Positions 2,478 to 16,707 of a stretch of DNA of 33,024 nucleotides are shown here, one piece after another; position 1 is the stretch's first letter, and the number at the start of each line of letters is the position of its first letter. Position numbers and translations under genes: made by a program. The notes below the pieces were generated by a model. It saw nothing but the letters and a program-made list of their open reading frames with translations. It was not told the origin of the DNA and did not search any database. The stretch spans positions 1 through 33,024 of the IMG/VR virus record IMGVR_UViG_3300014499_000019. The stretch is one strand, 5' to 3'. The DNA is from a virus.

Positions 2478-3560
2478 CTAAGCTGTACAAGCCTGAGAAT
2501 TTTCGAGCATGGATACTATTGCTCTAGCGCGAATATTTCGCGCGGCGTTCAGGTCTGCAAGCTCAGTGTGGTTGCAGGCGATACAAGAGAAGGTAGCTTG
2601 GTTAGGTCTGTTCTTCGCGTCGACGCATCCGCAAGCCGAGCATCCTTTGCTCGTGTTGCGCGGATCGACCGCGACTATCTGGACGCCAGCGCGCTTGGCT
2701 TTGTATTCCAAGAATGCGCGGAGTTGCCCGAAAGACCAATTTCCCAAGCGAGCGCGTTGGGCGCGACGGGCCGTAACCTGGGTGCGAATCCCATTGAGTT
2801 CTTCAATGGCGATTCCGCGTCCAGTGCGTTCAGCATCCAACACGATAGCCTTCGATACGCAGTGGTTGGTGTGGGCTTGAAACCTCGCTTGTTTTCCAGA
2901 AAGCTTGCGGAGGCGACGCTTTGCGGCCTTCGTCCCGCACTTTTGCAGACCCTTGCGACGATTGGCGAGACGGGCGCGGACGCGCTCGACCGCCGCGCCG
3001 GTGTAGACCCTACCGTCGCTCGTGGCTGCGACGGCGACGATGCCCATGTCGACGCCGAGCCAGTCGGACGCCTTGAACTCGATTGTTTCGGGAATGTCGC
3101 AGGTGCAAGCGAGCAACCATTTCCCGCGCACGAAGCAGAGATCGGCCTCGCCTTTGCGGAATTTGAGCAATTCGAGTTGCTTCGGACCAGCGACAAACCC
3201 GAGCTTCATACGACCTTCGACTGTCCAAATAGAAAGAATGCTGTCGCTCTTGAAGCTGAGAATTCGGTCGTCGTAGGGCTGCGCGGCGTCGTCGCGGAAG
3301 ACTGGCGCGACTTTTTTGTTGATCTTGAAGGCGTCGGCGACCTTAGCGATGCTGCGTACGGCGGCTTGAGCCGTAAGACCAAATTCGCTTTTAAGCCAAG
3401 AATATCCCATTTTGTGAAGATCGAATTGTCGGAACGTGTCGGTCGCAAATCCCTTCGCCGCGAGCGCCGTACATGCGTCATTGCACCTTTTGAGCGTCGC
3501 CTTGAGAACGGCGGCTTGCTCACGTGTAGGCAACAATTTAATGGCGGCGACCAATTTCAT
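2478..3560 (-). CDS. tnpB: TnpB RNA-guided endonuclease (360 aa), apparently intact
   Basis: TnpB proteins are RuvC nucleases that use an RNA copied from the element's 3' end to cut DNA next to a target-adjacent motif, which keeps the IS in place after excision. All three RuvC acids are present: D171 in LGVDMGI, E253 in AIEELNG and D336 in ADLNAARN. The zinc ribbon has C307/C310 and C326/C329 (CSAC, CIAC). The length is normal for a compact TnpB. The start at 3560 sits directly behind a good promoter, and no stop or frameshift is seen. It differs strongly from the second TnpB at 19230, so the two are separate acquisitions. Its base composition matches the surrounding genes. Confidence 0.92.
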   Translation of the reverse strand: MKLVAAIKLLPTREQAAVLKATLKRCNDACTALAAKGFATDTFRQFDLHKMGYSWLKSEFGLTAQAAVRSIAKVADAFKINKKVAPVFRDDAAQPYDDRILSFKSDSILSIWTVEGRMKLGFVAGPKQLELLKFRKGEADLCFVRGKWLLACTCDIPETIEFKASDWLGVDMGIVAVAATSDGRVYTGAAVERVRARLANRRKGLQKCGTKAAKRRLRKLSGKQARFQAHTNHCVSKAIVLDAERTGRGIAIEELNGIRTQVTARRAQRARLGNWSFGQLRAFLEYKAKRAGVQIVAVDPRNTSKGCSACGCVDAKNRPNQATFSCIACNHTELADLNAARNIRARAIVSMLENSQACTA

Positions 3561-3565
3561 GCTTC

Positions 3566-3594
3566 ACATATAGACGTTTTGGTGTATATGTCAA
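3566..3594 (-). promoter_or_regulatory. tnpB promoter with 7-bp palindrome
   Basis: On the minus strand TTGACA (3594-3589) and TATATG (3572-3567) are 16 bases apart. The inverted repeat TATATGT/ACATATA (3585-3591 and 3566-3572) overlaps both boxes. The -10 ends six bases before the tnpB ATG, so the message would be leaderless or nearly so. Confidence 0.5.
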
Positions 3595-3623
3595 GAGCAT
3601 GCCTCCCGGCATCCGCTATCCCT

Positions 3624-3643
3624 CCCCGGCATGAATGCCGGGG
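3624..3643. repeat. Left-end hairpin of TnpB element 1
   Basis: CCCCGGCATGAATGCCGGGG is a perfect 9-bp stem with a two-base loop. A second small hairpin (ATGCC-TCCC-GGCAT) lies at about 3599-3612. Both lie between the tnpB promoter and the next gene, as expected for the left end of an IS200/IS605 element. Confidence 0.65.
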
Positions 3644-3661
3644 TTTCTCGCGGAGATTCAG

Positions 3662-3727
3662 ATGAAGCCCTGTCCAAAGATTACAACGTGCCAAACACAT
3701 AAAGCTTCTGAAGGGAACATCATATGA
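3662..3727 (+). CDS. Possible 21-residue peptide
   Basis: The short frame MKPCPKITTCQTHKASEGNII starts at an ATG with GGAG about six bases upstream, and its stop overlaps the next start (ATATGA). It may be a leader peptide, or the surviving 3' end of a gene displaced when the TnpB element inserted, since it begins 19 bases past the left-end hairpin. Too short to assign. Confidence 0.3.
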   Translation: MKPCPKITTCQTHKASEGNII

Positions 3728-3831
3728 TCTTTGTTTTGGATTGCATTGGCTTGTATCTTCTTGGCGCTATCCCAACCTCCTTGATTATCGGCGCTATAAT
3801 TGGACGCGGCAATCCAAATTCGGAGGATTAG
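3724..3831 (+). CDS. Small membrane protein (35 aa)
   Basis: The product MIFVLDCIGLYLLGAIPTSL-IIGAIIGRGNPNSED is a single hydrophobic helix with a short charged tail. AAGGGA lies about seven bases upstream of the ATG, and the stop is two bases before the next start, so it reads as a genuine operon member. Small single-helix phage proteins often act on the host membrane or as superinfection or lysis factors, but nothing here decides between them. Confidence 0.55.
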   Translation: MIFVLDCIGLYLLGAIPTSLIIGAIIGRGNPNSED

Positions 3832-3833
3832 CC

Positions 3834-4061
3834 ATGACGCCGGAATTCAGACTGCCGGCGAAATGTCCCGTCTGCCGCAGCGCGGCGTTCGATTTGGTTT
3901 GGATTGATCGCACGACGGGCGACCCTGCAAAGCGCGTCGAATGTCCGACATGCACAGTCCCGCCGACTGCCGACCCGTGGCCGGCACTCATGGGAGATCT
4001 ATCCGATGAAGAAGAAGATATAAAGGATATAGAGCCGTTTGATTGGATTGAAGACGATTAA
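3834..4061 (+). CDS. Small zinc-ribbon protein with acidic tail (75 aa)
   Basis: The start MTPEFRLPAKCPVC at 3834 has GGAGG eight bases upstream, so the longer open frame before it is not used. CPVC (residues 11-14) and CPTC (about 38-41) form a probable four-cysteine zinc ribbon. The last about 20 residues are almost all Asp/Glu (DEEEDIKDIEPFDWIEDD), which could mimic DNA or contact polymerase. It is the last gene before the terminator at 4136-4188. Function unknown. Confidence 0.72.
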   Translation: MTPEFRLPAKCPVCRSAAFDLVWIDRTTGDPAKRVECPTCTVPPTADPWPALMGDLSDEEEDIKDIEPFDWIEDD

Positions 4062-4267: not shown

Positions 4268-4684
4268 ATGTCCAGCAAATGCCCGTTGATGAAAGCTCAC
4301 CTAACTCGACAGGAAGGCCGCGCGCTGTTTAATGGCCGCGCACCAAAGAAGACCAGTCGCTACACGGTGGCGCCGCGCGAACAGCGGACAATCGACGGGA
4401 TGACGTTCGCCAGTTTGGCGGAAGGCCGCCGCTACGGGGAATTAAAGCTGCGCGAGCGGATCGGTGAGATATTCGATCTTCGCTGCCAGCCCGCTTTCGA
4501 TTGCGTTGTCAACGGCGTCCACGTTCTGCGGTACACGGTCGATTTCGCCTATCGCGATGCGACAGGTCGTGAGGTCTACGAGGAAGTCAAATCAGGCCGC
4601 TCGGGTCGCGAGCGAGACTGGAAATTGCGGCGCGCGCTGGTCCAGGCGCTGCATGGCGTATCAATTGAAGTGGCGACATTGTGA
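4268..4684 (+). CDS. DUF1064-family protein (138 aa)
   Basis: The core DGMTFASLAEGRRYGELKL... CQPAFDCVVNGVHVLRYTVDF ... VYEEVKSGR matches the DUF1064 family of phage proteins, which has a restriction-nuclease-like fold (established knowledge, recalled). The Asp of VDFAYRD and the E-V-K of YEEVKSG look like the PD-(D/E)XK metal site, so a phage nuclease such as a Holliday-junction or recombination nuclease is likely. The start is chosen at MSSKCPLMKAHL; no clear ribosome site decides between this ATG and the one at 4289. The stop overlaps the next GTG (GTGA). Confidence 0.8.
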   Translation: MSSKCPLMKAHLTRQEGRALFNGRAPKKTSRYTVAPREQRTIDGMTFASLAEGRRYGELKLRERIGEIFDLRCQPAFDCVVNGVHVLRYTVDFAYRDATGREVYEEVKSGRSGRERDWKLRRALVQALHGVSIEVATL

Positions 4685-10518: not shown

Positions 10519-10841
10519 CGCCGACCCTCGGATACCCCAGCCGTGGTGAAGCCGTCATGGCGCTGACCGCGCAAGGCATGGATCGCTTCGAAATCGCGGC
10601 CCGTATCGGCATCAAGCCGGGCACGGTTGCGGTGCATTGGCATTACGGCAAGCGCGGTAGGAGCGCCCGTGGCAATCCAAAATTTGCGCATGTCAGGATC
10701 ACGCGAAAAGCCTTGACGACCCTAGCCTCGCACGCAGCCAAGCGTGGAGTGGCTGTTGACAGCCTCGCCCGCCTCATCCTGCAAGCCGTGGTCGAGGGCA
10801 ATCTCATGGACGCGGTGCTGGACGATGGGGATGGGAAATGA
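10515..10841 (+). CDS. HTH protein with ribbon-helix-helix-like tail (108 aa)
   Basis: Residues about 10-42 (GEAVMALTAQGMDRFEIAAR then IGIKPGTVAVHWHYG) form a helix-turn-helix. The C-terminal half (VRITRKALTTLASHAAKRGV then AVDSLARLILQAVVEGN) looks like a ribbon-helix-helix dimerisation unit. A small regulator is likely. It is coupled by ATGA overlaps to its neighbours on both sides. Confidence 0.7.
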   Translation: MTPTLGYPSRGEAVMALTAQGMDRFEIAARIGIKPGTVAVHWHYGKRGRSARGNPKFAHVRITRKALTTLASHAAKRGVAVDSLARLILQAVVEGNLMDAVLDDGDGK

Positions 10842-11053
10842 CCGACCCTGACTCCGAACCGTCCCGCGTCGTTTTCGGCGGCTCCGAGGCCGGTCTGCGG
10901 CGAACTCTGCCAATGGACGAGCCGTCGTTCGAAGCCGCGCTTGAGACTGTTCGCGTCGCCGCTGAGCGCTCGTTCTCCCCAGATGAAATCCGCGCGATGG
11001 GGATCGTGGCGAGGCGGGCGATGGTGAATGCGGCGGCGCGGGGGCAGCGGTGA
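10838..11053 (+). CDS. Small acidic hypothetical protein (71 aa)
   Basis: Starts by ATGA overlap and ends overlapping a GTG start. The product (MTDPDSEPSRVVFGGSEAGL... then RSFSPDEIRAMGIVARRAMV) is mostly helical in its second half. No known family. Its place between the replication and packaging genes gives no clear role. Confidence 0.62.
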   Translation: MTDPDSEPSRVVFGGSEAGLRRTLPMDEPSFEAALETVRVAAERSFSPDEIRAMGIVARRAMVNAAARGQR

Positions 11054-11916
11054 GCGGTCTGTATTTCAACGAAATAGACCCATTCGCCTGCGCGGTGCTG
11101 CGCGAGGCGCACGGCGGATTCGTCGACCAGCGCTCGATCAAGGAAGTGAACCCTGATGATGTCCGAGGATATGAGCGAGCGCATTTCTTTGCCGGCGCAG
11201 GACTCTGGGAGATCGCCGCCGACATGGCCGGAAAGCCTCGCGAAGGTCGCCCCGTCATCGACTGGGAGGCCATTGAGCGAGAATTCCGCGCCGGGCAGCT
11301 TTCGGTCGTCGAGATCGGACGACAGCACGGGTTGAGCCACACCGCCATCAACAAGCGGGCCAAGCGTGACGGGTGGACCCGCAACCTCGCCGACAAGGTT
11401 CGAAAAGCGGTTTCAGCGAGACGCCCTGCGGGGAAGAAATCAGTGGACTGGAAGAGGATTGGGGCCCAATATCGCCCTCGGAAAACCCAGTGCGACGCGC
11501 GCGAATCTATCATCAATGATTATGCGGCAAAATTTGCAGGAACTGCGGCGCTCGCTGATGAGATGGGATGGCCGAAAGCTAGTAAGGTTATATCGCAAGT
11601 GAAAGTGGGAGGGGCAATCGTCGACGTGATGATTAAACATGTCGACGGGTCGATAACCATTATCGAGGTCAAACGTGCCGGTCTGGGTTTGAGAGACTAT
11701 TGCTGTGGAATTGGCCAACTTATGTATCAAGTGCAGGCCGCAACTCTCGAATTCCGGACGCTTAATGTCCGCGCAGTGCTGGCGTTGCCGGGAGCCCCTA
11801 GTTTCCACTTAATTCTGGCTGCGATGCGCGCCAACGTCGAAATCCTACCACTGCCAACCGCGCGCGAATGGAAATCTTCGATGGAGTATGCCTGTGGGGC
11901 GGCGAACGGATATTGA
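11050..11916 (+). CDS. Chimeric protein: C5-methylase N-terminus, TerS-like HTH, PD-(D/E)XK-like domain (288 aa)
   Basis: Three unrelated pieces are joined in one frame. Residues 1-62 (YFNEIDPFACAVLR ... HFFAGAGLWEIAADMAG) match the start of phage C5-cytosine methyltransferases including the AdoMet loop FAGAG, but the catalytic PC motif and everything after is missing. Residues 69-125 (IDWEAIEREFRAGQLSVVEI, continuing to WTRNLADKV) are a helix-turn-helix closely like the N-terminus of the small terminase encoded next at 11888. A further SVDWKRIGAQY starts at 132. Residues 150-270 hold D192 in AIVDVMI and E206/K208 in IIEVKRAG, a PD-(D/E)XK-type nuclease pattern. GTG start coupled to the gene before. 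Methylation activity is very unlikely; DNA binding and cleavage are possible. Confidence 0.78.
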   Translation: MSGLYFNEIDPFACAVLREAHGGFVDQRSIKEVNPDDVRGYERAHFFAGAGLWEIAADMAGKPREGRPVIDWEAIEREFRAGQLSVVEIGRQHGLSHTAINKRAKRDGWTRNLADKVRKAVSARRPAGKKSVDWKRIGAQYRPRKTQCDARESIINDYAAKFAGTAALADEMGWPKASKVISQVKVGGAIVDVMIKHVDGSITIIEVKRAGLGLRDYCCGIGQLMYQVQAATLEFRTLNVRAVLALPGAPSFHLILAAMRANVEILPLPTAREWKSSMEYACGAANGY

Positions 11917-12538
11917 CTGGCAGGCGATTGAACGAGACTTTCGACTAGGACAGTTCACTCTCCGTCAGATCGCCCATAAGCACAAAGTTAGCGCCGGCTC
12001 TATAAGCCGGAAGTCTGAAAAAGAAAGCTGGGTTCAAGACCTTAGCAGGGAGGTCAAGGAAAAAACCCAAGCAGCGTTGCTTTCTAATGCAACACAAAGC
12101 AACACAGAGGCGGTCGAAGTCGCGGTTCAGACCAATGTTGCTTTGGTGTTGGAACACCGGAGTGATATCCGCGAAAGCCGATCCATTACAAAAGCCATGT
12201 TAACCGAACTGCGCGAGGCAACCGAAAGCAGGGAAGATATCGTCGAGGCTATCGAACTCGAAACAGCCGATGACAAAAACACAAAGCGCCGAGCGATGAT
12301 GTTGAGGGCCGTCGCCCTCCCGTCGCGGTCCAGCATCATCGTAAACCTTTCGTCCGCGCTCAAGACGCTGGTCGGGTTAGAGCGCCAAGCGTTCAACCTC
12401 GACGCGCCGCCCGAGGCTCAAACCGTCCAGGTCAACAACACGACGAACATATTGCACGTCGGCGGAATGTCGGTTGAGGAACTTGAAGCGCTTGAGGGCG
12501 CGTTGGTTAAGACGATCGAGGGCGAGAAAGCGGAATAA
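11888..12538 (+). CDS. terS: Terminase small subunit-like protein (216 aa)
   Basis: The small terminase recognises the packaging site on phage DNA and regulates the large subunit. Residues about 8-58 (IDWQAIERDFRLGQFTLRQI, then AHKHKVSAGSISRKS) form the DNA-binding helix-turn-helix, and the middle is a long helical oligomerisation region (about 85-180). The C-terminus (VQVNNTTNILHVGGMSVEEL then EALEGALVK) resembles the part that contacts the large subunit. Its N-terminus is a near-duplicate of the HTH in the chimeric gene before it, with which it overlaps by 29 bases. Position just before the large terminase supports the call. Confidence 0.82.
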   Translation: MPVGRRTDIDWQAIERDFRLGQFTLRQIAHKHKVSAGSISRKSEKESWVQDLSREVKEKTQAALLSNATQSNTEAVEVAVQTNVALVLEHRSDIRESRSITKAMLTELREATESREDIVEAIELETADDKNTKRRAMMLRAVALPSRSSIIVNLSSALKTLVGLERQAFNLDAPPEAQTVQVNNTTNILHVGGMSVEELEALEGALVKTIEGEKAE

Positions 12539-12972: not shown

Positions 12973-15900
12973 TTGTCCACCATAAAGCTACCTCGCAAGA
13001 TCGATCTTCATGCTCAGCGCCGCGCAGTTGAAAAGGAACTGTGCGAGCGCAACCTTTCCGCGTTCATCCGCCGCGCGTGGCATGTGATAGAACCCGGGCA
13101 GCCTTACGTACACAACTGGCACATTGACCTGATATGCGCGCACCTCGAAGCCATTACGGATGGCGTCGTGCTTGAGGACGGCTCGCCTTATAACCGGCTG
13201 CTTATCAATGTGCCGCCTGGCCCGATGCGCCACGACTCGGTCGTCGAAACCGCTCGCGGCCAAGTTGCGCTCAGCGACGTTCGCATAGGCGACTTCGTAC
13301 TGACGCATATGGGGCGATACCGCGAGGTTTCGGCAGTCCACGACCAGGGCATTTTGCCTATCCTGCGCATCGTGACTAATTCGGGGCGCGTCACCCATGC
13401 CGCGCCATCGCATCCGTATCTTACGCCGTGCGGATGGGTAGACGCCAAAGACTTGAGTGTTGGCGACGTGCTAGCCGCAGTGAATCGCCATGAGGATAGA
13501 CCGGGCGTTCGAAGTATCCAGCCCGAAGAAGCACGCCTTCTTGGCTACCTCATAGGCGACGGCTCATTAACGCAAGCGACGGCTGGTTTTACGAATGCCG
13601 ATCGGGAAGTAATTGACGACTTCCGCGCTTGCGCCACTGCTCTCGGTTTTGAAACAGCCGAAAGTTGGCGCAATTCACATTGGCATGTTCGTTTGAATGG
13701 GCGAACGCGCGTCAAGGCGTGGCTTGCTGATCACGGACTTGTCGGCGCGAGTTCTTACACGAAACGGATTCCGGCCGCAGTTATGTCGGCATCCGTCGCA
13801 ACCTTGCGCGAATTTCTCGGCGCCTACTGGACTTGCGACGGGGGTTTCGACGTTAGGCCCATTGGATCGCGCGGATCAAAGTTCCGCGCCTATGCTACGA
13901 CGGTTAGCGAGGGGCTTGCGGATGACCTCGTTGCCGCGCTCGGCCTTGTCGGCATCGAGTCGCGCCTACGCCGTAAGGCGCGGCCGCTTGAAACTGCGTC
14001 GCAACCCGGCGGCGTCTATCGTTCATTCAGTATCGAAGTTCAGAACGAGGCCATGACCGCGCGTCTCGCTGACTTTGGCGGGTTGTGCTCGCGCAAGCGC
14101 GCGCTCGCGGAGCAATGCCGGCGCGGGTTCGATCGCCCGCTATGGAATGATGAAATCGTATCCATCGAGCAATCCGATCCATCTCATTGCCTTTGCCTGA
14201 CGGTCGAGGAGGACCATTCCTTCACATGTTCGGGCATTGCCGTAAAGAACTCGATGAAATCGCTAATATTGAATGTGTTTTGGCCTGCGTGGGAGTGGGG
14301 ACCGCGCAACATGCCGCATCTTCGGTATGTGTGCGCCGCGCATTCGCAAACCTTGGCGGTGCGCGATAGCACCAAAATGCGACGCCTCGTCCAGTCGGAC
14401 TGGTATCATGGATACTGGGGCGATCGCGTCAAACTCATGGGCGATCAAAACGCCAAAACGAAATTCGAGAACAGTGCGACGGGTTTCCGAGAGGCAATTG
14501 CGGCCGGTTCCATTACCGGCGCTCGCGGAGATCGGATTCTTTGTTTCCCGGCTGACGAACTTGTCCACTCCGAAGGAGGCTTATTTCCGATCGGCGCTCT
14601 TGTGCGCGATAGGTCAAAGGTGAAAGTCTGGTCTGCCGATCCGTTGACAGGGGAAACGACGCTAAAACGCATCGAAGGCTGGCATATAAACCCCGCCTCC
14701 GATCTTGTCGAAGTCACACTATCCGATGGCTCGACGTTTCAATGTACGCCAAATCATCGGATTTGGACGCGTTCAGGCTGGGTTGAGGCTGCGCTTTTGC
14801 AACCCGGTCACCGAGTTCCACGTTCGACCATCCCGGATCATGGCGATGGATTTCTTGTCAACGCCATATCTCCTAGCCAAAGCGCGTTGGCTTTCGGAAC
14901 TAGAAAATATCTCAAGGACTTGGGTATCGTTGAGCTTGCTATTTCGCACTTCCATTCCTTTGTGCATATAGCTAGTCTGCCTAATCCCTTCCGTTACGCT
15001 TTTCCAAGTTTTGCCACGCCTAATTTGTTCAATAGTTCCGCATTTCACACCGTATCTTTCCGCAAGTTCGTTGGCGTTGGCTCGGCTCGCGGCGATCGCG
15101 GCAGCATGCACGCGCGTAAGGATAGCGCCCGGACGCTTTTCAAGAAGCGGGAACGTTCCGTGTCGTTTGGCGTCCGCAATGTTCTGAGCGCGCGTTCCAT
15201 ATTCGAGGTTGTCAAGGCGCGCATTATCTCGTGTCCCGTCTCTGTGACAAACCTCTTGGCCTATTGGACACGGCCCTACAAAAGCGCGCAAAACCTCTTG
15301 ATGGACAAAGAGTTGCGTAGCGTGTCCAGCCCAACTGGCATTAAAACGCGGATATCCTTTAGTTTGGCTCAGTTTAAGGATTTTCTCGGGAATAGTAAGC
15401 GTTCCTCTCCCAGTTCGGTTAACGACGCGAGCATGGCTTTTGACGCGGCCAAGATCACTTACGCTGTAAAGCCCTTCAAAACCCTCGATAGGAATCCAGT
15501 TCTCGTTAGGAAGATCGGTCATCGTGCTGAAACCTTCTGCTTGACGGTACAGGACAACCATACATTCTTTGTGGGTAATGGGGAAGGTGTTCTTGTCGCC
15601 AATTGCGACGATCCCCATTCGGTCGAAGGCGCGGCGTCGGACGCCATGCGAAATACAACACTGGAATGGTTCACCGAGGCGGTCCCTACCCGTCTGAACA
15701 ACCCCGCGACGTCCGCTATTGTCGTCATCATGCAGCGGCTGCATGAGGAGGACGTGTCTGGCGTGATCCTGGAGCGCAAGGGCTATGCGGGGCTTTGGGA
15801 CGCCATCATTCTCCCGATGCGCTTCGAAGTGTGGCGGAAAAATCTCCCGACGAAACTCGGATATGTCGACCCGCGTGAAGTGGAAGGCGAGTTGCTATTC

Positions 15901-16707
15901 GAGGAGAGATTCAGCGAAAAGACCGTCACCGATCTTGAGAACTCGCTAGGCCCTTATGCTACTGCCGGCCAGCTTCAACAAACGCCAATGCCTCGTGGCG
16001 GCGGTATCATCAAGGATGAATGGTGGCGGAAATGGCCGGATAATCAGGAATACCCGCCATGTGATTATATTGTCGGTTCACTTGACACCGCATATACTGA
16101 AAAGCAGGAAAACGACTTTTCTGCGATGACGATATGGGGGGTTTTCACGACTTCGTCAAAGGCTACTCCAACGAAGGTTATCACGCGTGAGGGGCAAATC
16201 CTCTCATTCCAAGAGCGAGTTTATCAAGAAGGCGCACCGAATGTCGTCATGATATATGCTTGGCAAGAAAGGCTGGCATTTCCAAATCTAGTCGCTAAAG
16301 TTCTAAAAACATGTCGAGATTGTAGGGTCGACCATCTGCTTATAGAAAACAAAGCAGCTGGAATAAGTGTCGGGCAAGAGTTGCGCCAAGCCCTCGGATC
16401 GGGTTCATTCGGCATACAGCTTGTCGATCCACGCGGAGGCGATAAGGTCGCGCGTCTTTACAGCGTCCAGCATATTTTCTCGGAAATGATGGTTTGGGCT
16501 CCTGACAAAGAATGGGCGGAAATGGTAATAAGGCAAGTGTCGACGTTCCCGAAAGGAAAACACGACGACCTTGTCGACAGTTTATCACAAAGTTTACGTT
16601 ATTTAAGAGACACTGGCATGTTAACGCGTGCCGTCGAGCGCATGGACCAGATCGAACAGGACAGGATTTTCAAAGGGCGCACTCCTGCGCCGTTATATCC
16701 GGGGTAA
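12973..16707 (+). CDS. terL: Large terminase with two inteins (1244-aa precursor; 547-aa spliced ATPase-nuclease)
   Basis: The large terminase pumps DNA into the capsid with its ATPase and cuts it with an RNase H-like nuclease. With both inteins removed the protein would be 547 residues, the usual size. The joins rebuild the Walker A loop VPPG/SMKS (13221/14251) and the Walker B stretch DRIL/CDDPHSVEG (14541/15604). The nuclease acids are visible in GSLDTAY (about 16084), LLIENKAAG (about 16342) and KHDDLVDS (about 16561). It starts with TTG; no better start is available after the preceding stop. Unless both inteins splice, the ATPase motifs are broken and the phage cannot package, so splicing must be efficient or regulated. 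The 3' third is AT-richer than the inteins. Confidence 0.93.
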   Translation: MSTIKLPRKIDLHAQRRAVEKELCERNLSAFIRRAWHVIEPGQPYVHNWHIDLICAHLEAITDGVVLEDGSPYNRLLINVPPGPMRHDSVVETARGQVALSDVRIGDFVLTHMGRYREVSAVHDQGILPILRIVTNSGRVTHAAPSHPYLTPCGWVDAKDLSVGDVLAAVNRHEDRPGVRSIQPEEARLLGYLIGDGSLTQATAGFTNADREVIDDFRACATALGFETAESWRNSHWHVRLNGRTRVKAWLADHGLVGASSYTKRIPAAVMSASVATLREFLGAYWTCDGGFDVRPIGSRGSKFRAYATTVSEGLADDLVAALGLVGIESRLRRKARPLETASQPGGVYRSFSIEVQNEAMTARLADFGGLCSRKRALAEQCRRGFDRPLWNDEIVSIEQSDPSHCLCLTVEEDHSFTCSGIAVKNSMKSLILNVFWPAWEWGPRNMPHLRYVCAAHSQTLAVRDSTKMRRLVQSDWYHGYWGDRVKLMGDQNAKTKFENSATGFREAIAAGSITGARGDRILCFPADELVHSEGGLFPIGALVRDRSKVKVWSADPLTGETTLKRIEGWHINPASDLVEVTLSDGSTFQCTPNHRIWTRSGWVEAALLQPGHRVPRSTIPDHGDGFLVNAISPSQSALAFGTRKYLKDLGIVELAISHFHSFVHIASLPNPFRYAFPSFATPNLFNSSAFHTVSFRKFVGVGSARGDRGSMHARKDSARTLFKKRERSVSFGVRNVLSARSIFEVVKARIISCPVSVTNLLAYWTRPYKSAQNLLMDKELRSVSSPTGIKTRISFSLAQFKDFLGNSKRSSPSSVNDASMAFDAAKITYAVKPFKTLDRNPVLVRKIGHRAETFCLTVQDNHTFFVGNGEGVLVANCDDPHSVEGAASDAMRNTTLEWFTEAVPTRLNNPATSAIVVIMQRLHEEDVSGVILERKGYAGLWDAIILPMRFEVWRKNLPTKLGYVDPREVEGELLFEERFSEKTVTDLENSLGPYATAGQLQQTPMPRGGGIIKDEWWRKWPDNQEYPPCDYIVGSLDTAYTEKQENDFSAMTIWGVFTTSSKATPTKVITREGQILSFQERVYQEGAPNVVMIYAWQERLAFPNLVAKVLKTCRDCRVDHLLIENKAAGISVGQELRQALGSGSFGIQLVDPRGGDKVARLYSVQHIFSEMMVWAPDKEWAEMVIRQVSTFPKGKHDDLVDSLSQSLRYLRDTGMLTRAVERMDQIEQDRIFKGRTPAPLYPG
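13222..14250 (+). other. Intein 1 (343 aa) with LAGLIDADG endonuclease, at Walker A
   Basis: An in-frame protein intron of residues 84-426. Block A begins P-M-R-H-D-S-V-V with Pro where Cys/Ser is usual; block B is GRVTHAAPSHPYLT (His present, usual Thr replaced by Ala); LLGYLIGDG and LGAYWTCDGG are the two LAGLIDADG helices; block F is CLCLTVEEDHSF with Cys at the usual Asp position; block G ends AVKN before Ser. The endonuclease would cut intein-free terL at the Walker A codons. The ends are set by the restored PPG-SMKS motif. Confidence 0.9.
14542..15603 (+). other. Intein 2 (354 aa), splicing domain without in-frame endonuclease, at Walker B
   Basis: Residues 524-877 form the intein. Block A is CFPADELVHSEGG (Cys1), block B is GSTFQCTPNHRIWT with the TxxH pair intact, block F is TFCLTVQDNHTFF and block G ends VLVAN followed by Cys. 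The penultimate His is replaced by Ala. The about 250 residues between blocks B and F match no homing endonuclease in this frame and look like nonsense sequence; that DNA encodes an HNH endonuclease on the other strand. The ends restore DRIL-CDDPHSVEG. Confidence 0.9.
14773..15522 (-). CDS. NUMOD4-HNH homing endonuclease encoded antisense inside intein 2 (249 aa)
   Basis: On the minus strand, ATG at 15522 with AGAAGG about ten bases upstream opens a 249-residue protein. NENWIPIEGFEGLYSVSDLG (residues 6-25) is a NUMOD4 motif. VHQEVLRAFVG ... CHRDGTRDNARLDNLEYGT (about 73-110) is an HNH_3 domain with H93 and N105 in place. Two tandem helix-turn-helix repeats follow, ELAERYGVKCGTIEQIRRG and ALARRYGVDKKSIAMIRDG, each ending in a W-x-S-V-T segment typical of NUMOD-type DNA-binding repeats. 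The gene lies wholly inside the intein, in codon register with terL, so each strand must avoid TTA, CTA and TCA codons. It would be expressed as antisense RNA to terL. The frame stays open upstream to 15744, but the ribosome site and domain start favour 15522. Confidence 0.9.
   Translation of the reverse strand: MTDLPNENWIPIEGFEGLYSVSDLGRVKSHARVVNRTGRGTLTIPEKILKLSQTKGYPRFNASWAGHATQLFVHQEVLRAFVGPCPIGQEVCHRDGTRDNARLDNLEYGTRAQNIADAKRHGTFPLLEKRPGAILTRVHAAAIAASRANANELAERYGVKCGTIEQIRRGKTWKSVTEGIRQTSYMHKGMEVRNSKLNDTQVLEIFSSSESQRALARRYGVDKKSIAMIRDGRTWNSVTGLQKRSLNPA

Follow-up and report, generated by a model that had tools for sequence, protein, structure and literature searches.

A single open reading frame ahead of a phage terminase joins truncated methyltransferase and small-terminase starts to a predicted PD-(D/E)XK nuclease

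The window, that is, the whole stretch of 33,024 bases analysed here, is a single virus record, in which one unbroken open reading frame (ORF) on the + strand extends from a GTG at 11050 to a stop at 11916 and encodes 288 aa. The GTG overlaps the stop of a small ORF (10838-11053, +; GC 68%, GC3 0.76) in the GC-rich block to the left, and this GTGA overlap, a usual sign of a translationally coupled phage gene start, suggests that the two are coupled. At its 3' end the ORF overlaps by 29 nt the start of the intact local small terminase gene (terS-B, 11888-12538, +; phrog_1206 E 3e-43, profile positions 5-189 of 207), to the right of which lies the large terminase gene (terL, 12973-16707, +; phrog_38 E 2e-71) with two in-frame inteins (LAGLIDADG_3, Intein_splicing, PT-HINT). 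A PHROGs search divided the 288-aa ORF into residues 3-61 (phrog_363) and residues 69-123 (phrog_1206), with nothing firm beyond, and a Pfam search gave no match above cut-off. Judged from the sequence, three homologies in the ORF, to a C5-methyltransferase start, to the helix-turn-helix (HTH) of a small terminase and to a PD-(D/E)XK domain, lie far above chance. The three-part chimera in one intact frame, which had been described in an earlier note on this DNA, is therefore real. The scans performed revealed no second example of a methyltransferase-HTH-nuclease fusion.

The first piece (11050-11237, +; residues 1 to ~62) preserves only the 5' end of a phage C5-cytosine methyltransferase (MTase) gene (phrog_363 E 1.9e-9). 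It is 65% identical to the intact MTase of contig L086 and 64-65% identical across L086 and L087; among the intact relatives in L086, L087 and L088, which carry PF00145, identity amounts to 60-65% up to HFFAGAGLW..AxxMAG. The SAM motif FxGxG is retained as HFFAGAGLW at residues 45-53, as in these three enzymes. Past AxxMAG, the intact MTases read W-P-D-x-R-P-L-W-T-A-S-C-P-C-Q-P-F-S, whereas the window turns into a terS start. Homology to the L086/L087 MTases stops at 11238/11256 in the protein and at 11231/11237 in the DNA, which places the methylase-terS joint between about 11231 and 11257. Thus, the likeness to phage C5-cytosine methyltransferases (phrog_363, PF00145) comprises the first ~62 residues and the start context, but the catalytic PC (PCQ) motif, the target-recognition region and the rest of the enzyme are absent, in agreement with the earlier description of a methyltransferase start that keeps FAGAG and lacks the PC motif (HFFAGAGLW...SCPCQPFS in the intact relatives). 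A search for the rest of the MTase elsewhere in the window gave nothing above chance. Because both the PC motif and the remainder of the enzyme are missing from the window, the methylase piece cannot be active. The earlier note suggested looking in related phages for the junction with an intact methylase beside terS. The neighbourhoods examined around relatives of the local terS contain no MTase, so that an ancestral arrangement of MTase and terS-A was not found. In a homologous C5-methyltransferase of EBPR siphovirus 2 (L084, 2992-5487), which is annotated simply as a methylase, the part past the PC motif resembles an intein (GSCPCFPAGALVLTKRGYVEI...).

The second piece (11248-11424, +; residues ~67-124) likewise preserves only the 5' end of its gene, a terS of foreign origin here called terS-A, and comprises the DNA-binding HTH only (phrog_1206 E 5e-23), confirming the small-terminase HTH that had been noticed inside the ORF. 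An ATG at 11224 (M59; MAGKPREGRPVIDW...) is a candidate for the old terS start, at which the fragment may begin. The fragment covers positions 6-60 of the 207 positions of the phrog_1206 profile, and its homology stops at ~11424, directly past the DNA-binding domain. It shares with the small terminases of phrog_1206 the N-terminal HTH but lacks their oligomerisation and C-terminal parts, and it cannot act as a terS. The earlier note had taken this HTH to be nearly a duplicate of the beginning of the terS at 11888; however, over 57 aa the two share only 35% identity (E about 1e-10), and no direct DNA repeat was found between them except one chance-level 14-mer elsewhere in terS. In contrast, identity of the fragment to the terS of L020 reaches 79% at the protein and 81% at the nucleotide level, and protein identity to the terS of L015 is 78%. 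A tree built from 57 HTHs separates the fragment from the local terS, placing them in different clades with supports of 0.92 and 0.99, the latter clade including L003, L004 and L019. Sequence and tree together indicate that the HTH piece is a remnant of another terS lineage, not copied from the local gene. The dN/dS of the fragment is 0.18 against L020 and 0.24 against L015, compared with 0.13 between those two intact genes; these values do not clearly show relaxed constraint and decide nothing. A third terS stub, which the earlier note had seen in DWKRIGAQY, was rejected, as the match of terS to 11428-11475 is at chance level (E 0.87). The free-standing nuclease of L110 has TDWERM at the same N-terminal place (...APTDWERMFPR...), and DWKRIGAQY is therefore the nuclease's own N-terminus.

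The third piece (11431-11916, +; residues ~131-288) appears, from its relatives, fold and active-site set, to be a complete small PD-(D/E)XK nuclease similar to the nuclease domain of EndoMS/NucS. A GTG at 11443, preceded by GGGGAAG, is a possible native start, from which the nuclease may also be translated alone. No close relatives of this part were found in the phage, plasmid and viral-contig collections, nor of the whole ORF among genome contigs; querying PDB sequences with this C-terminal part gave nothing either, nor did PADLOC, and 45 genomes of the phylum of one match yielded no relative in a search that had no positive control. Relatives were found only by hand-made DNA motif scans with the pattern EVK-x13-GQLxY, which misses other spacings. 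Most matches of these scans lay in head-protein genes or other frames and were discarded as chance. Two true relatives remained among the viral contigs. One is a free-standing gene of 152 aa in L110 (1021-1479), 50% identical over 112 aa to the window nuclease; the other, a distant one, is a free-standing gene of 151 aa in L101 (3474-3929), which a profile of the window and L110 proteins detected in its own record with E 1.4e-12. Between the window nuclease and that of L110, pS is 0.81, so that synonymous sites are near saturation, and pN is 0.40, which argues that the nuclease family is under purifying selection. A stable, long-standing family, which the earlier note regarded as evidence against its reading, is seen for the nuclease part alone and not for the chimera.

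Both viral relatives, and hence every true viral one from the motif scans, lie directly before terS-terL, each with a different terS and neither with an HTH. In L110 the nuclease is followed by a phrog_641/15261-type terS at 1524 and terL at 1792. In L101 a small ORF at 3939, which has no family match and is a putative terS by its position, and an apparent terL at 4303 follow. The adjacency of nuclease and terS therefore comprises three loci (the window, L110 and L101), with the link to L101 being distant. About 80 other terS neighbourhoods, including those of the relatives of the local terS, have no gene of this family, and none of these loci is close enough to serve as an empty site.

Residues D192, E206, K208, Q223 and Y226 (D, E-V-K, I-G-Q-L, Y) are invariant in seven relatives and contain the D-(X)n-E-x-K catalytic motif of the PD-(D/E)XK superfamily; the residue numbers previously given for D192, E206 and K208 are correct. 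An AlphaFold (AF2) model built from seven sequences reached a pLDDT of 76.8, with the core above 90, and its secondary structure assigned by DSSP (H17-34, E47-56, E59-67, E72-77, H84-105, E110-117) has the alpha-beta-beta-beta-alpha-beta core of the superfamily. A model from the single sequence (pLDDT 42) and its Foldseek list were dismissed as useless. With the seven-sequence model, Foldseek placed Pyrococcus NucS first (2vld, E 5e-6), then EndoMS, SfsA and Card1, and VIA-align gave a Z score of 12.2 to both 5gke and 2vld over 108-110 residues with an rmsd of 2.4-2.6 A. These matches to solved PD-(D/E)XK enzymes support the nuclease call of the earlier note and rule out one outcome that it had named as refuting, the lack of a predicted nuclease fold in the C-terminal part. 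The piece is thus a predicted PD-(D/E)XK domain of the EndoMS/NucS kind, with Pyrococcus abyssi NucS (2vld) and the EndoMS-DNA complex (5gke) as the best fold matches, sharing the core and the D-ExK-Q..Y set. It is not a NucS, because the NucS N-terminal dimerisation/DNA-binding domain is missing (the relatives have only 151-152 aa, and the window N-terminus consists of the MTase and terS pieces) and the NucS_C sequence cut-off is not reached; a role in mismatch repair is not implied. In detail, the C-terminal part of the window protein is unlisted in Pfam and has E 0.11 to NCBIfam NucS, L110 scores 13.3 bits to NucS_C against a curated cut-off of 24, and L101 matches YhcG_C (PF06250) with E 2e-5 and NucS_C with E 2e-4, both below the curated cut-offs. 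The likeness to the YhcG_C PDDEXK domain is through the distant L101 only, the window protein itself being below reach. No HNH motif of the HK97 gp74 type was found, the match to phrog_35854 (E 0.19) covering the HTH only and the fold being PD-(D/E)XK.

Base composition changes within the ORF. GC is 62-65% from 10500 to about 11400-11430; beyond about 11430-11450 and through terS it is mostly 48-57%, so that the step falls at the transition from the terS-A remnant to the nuclease. Left of the step lie two truncated gene starts, whereas the nuclease and the terS of the other lineage to the right of it are both complete. This is most simply read as the joining of two arms, the left one carrying MTase and terS-A and the right one carrying nuclease and terS-B.

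We consider that the ORF is a scar of mosaic exchange and not of a copy event, with a working nuclease in a putative homing-like role, and we give this reading a probability of about 0.55. The left arm of the ancestor would have ended in a C5-methyltransferase gene and terS-A, and illegitimate recombination would have cut both genes near their starts and joined the two truncated starts in frame to a complete small PD-(D/E)XK nuclease gene, which would have arrived with its own right-hand neighbour, terS-B. The nuclease would be the working part of the fusion. Its target would be the DNA of a co-infecting phage, cut in the terS region or close to it, and repair would copy in the nuclease together with the adjoining terminase genes, resulting in a homing-like exchange of modules. 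Because the position of the nuclease is precisely between the truncated old terS and the intact new one, we take such a role as the most likely one by analogy. The N-terminal methylase and HTH pieces are, in all likelihood, passive leftovers. What the data show is the anatomy of the ORF, the two terS lineages, the step in base composition, the predicted fold and conserved active site of the nuclease, and the nuclease-terS-terL order in two other phages. Unbroken junctions were found in no ancestral or sister genome, so that the sequence of events is inferred, as are expression, catalysis and the homing-like role. The proposal in the earlier note of a nuclease cassette that landed in a methylase-terS junction and copied part of terS comes close to this in its cassette part, but not in the copying.

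Nucleases beside phage terminases have been reported before. In a 2023 survey, homing-type nucleases were found at the boundaries of phage genetic exchange, with T5orf172 genes the ones most frequently close to terminases, and the DNA ahead of the terminase was argued to be a hot spot for nucleases resembling homing endonuclease genes (HEGs) (PMC10448857). The position of the present nuclease at an exchange boundary is consistent with a homing endonuclease gene. Like HK97 gp74, an HNH protein, and the HEG-like nucleases (PMC10448857), it is encoded directly upstream of terS-terL at such a boundary, but its fold is PD-(D/E)XK and not HNH or T5orf172, and its role, homing or packaging, is putative. 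A literature search of open-licence PMC papers found nothing relevant on a NucS-like nuclease with a terminase. HNH and T5orf172 nucleases at terminase-side exchange boundaries are thus already known, and the PD-(D/E)XK example and this chimeric ORF are new.

The main rival to a homing-like role is that of a packaging accessory, which we regard as possible though rather unlikely. By analogy with HK97 gp74, which is encoded directly upstream of the terminase and promotes cos cleavage (PMC9410871, PMC10448857), the nuclease could be a domesticated part of the packaging module that helps the terminase to cut the concatemer at cos/pac, with the N-terminal pieces irrelevant or mildly helpful. Its identical place directly before terS-terL in three divergent phages would fit such a function, as would the overlap of the nuclease stop with the terS start, which suggests translational coupling. 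However, the family is rare, being absent from the about 80 other terS neighbourhoods described above, and its terS and terL partners differ among the three loci.

Another explanation, offered by the earlier note in terms of a novel nuclease targeted by the terminase DNA-binding domain, is that the foreign terS-A HTH addresses the fused PD-(D/E)XK domain to the terminase recognition sites of rival phages or to the phage's own packaging site. Both joints are in frame over 288 codons without a stop, the HTH is undamaged relative to the terS consensus, and the N-terminal start is still translationally coupled to the upstream ORF. Nevertheless, three coding pieces joined at random stay in frame in ~1/9 of cases (two joints), so that an open fusion needs no selection, although this frequency leaves some room for selection on the fusion. 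Moreover, both viral relatives are free-standing without an HTH, the fusion is a single case in the scans made, and a useless methylase fragment stands at the N-terminus. This explanation is therefore not favoured and appears improbable; if true, it would reveal a previously unseen means by which a phage nuclease is directed to its target.

An artefact of assembly or binning, with sequences from two or three phages combined in one contig, is still less probable. The junction is known from one virus record, an independent copy of it was not found, and GC steps at about 11430. On the other hand, no exact repeat of at least 14 nt is shared between the joints and the rest of the window, the joints are in frame, the surrounding gene order is coherent, and the nuclease-terS order recurs in L110 and L101. 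The local duplication proposed in the earlier note, with the terS at 11888 as the source of the HTH, has the homology of the two HTHs in its favour but was rejected as virtually impossible, being contradicted by the tree, by the much higher identity to the terS of other phages and by the lack of a DNA-level repeat.

The locus adds the PD-(D/E)XK (EndoMS/NucS-like) class to the nucleases sitting directly before phage terminase genes. Under the preferred reading of a mosaic-exchange scar, it also keeps a readable trace of terminase exchange, in which remains of the former terS lie next to its replacement. Should the nuclease indeed drive exchange, the locus would offer a direct test of whether hot-spot nucleases move terminase genes or serve packaging, a question that is left open in the literature (PMC10448857).

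Further nuclease genes were observed around these terminases. In relatives of the local terS, genes for HNH_3 or RusA lie 1.4-2 kb before terS (L025, 3012-3623; L003, 3018-3539; L004, 2772-3227), as would be expected if the DNA ahead of terminases is rich in nuclease genes. In L110, a homing-type endonuclease with HNH_3 and AP2-like domains (3234-3788) follows terL, so that the terminase genes of this contig are bracketed by two nucleases. In the window, the two terL inteins lie, by eye, in the Walker A region (NVPPG/SMKS) and in the RGDRIL/CDDPH region. The first carries a LAGLIDADG_3 endonuclease, and the second (14542-15603, +) has HINT domains at both ends and no recognised endonuclease in its sense frame. 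Antisense over the second intein lies a homing-endonuclease ORF with NUMOD4 and HNH_3 (14773-15744, -; Pfam E 1e-14 and 2e-10), throughout which the sense intein frame stays open, an arrangement that looks unusual.
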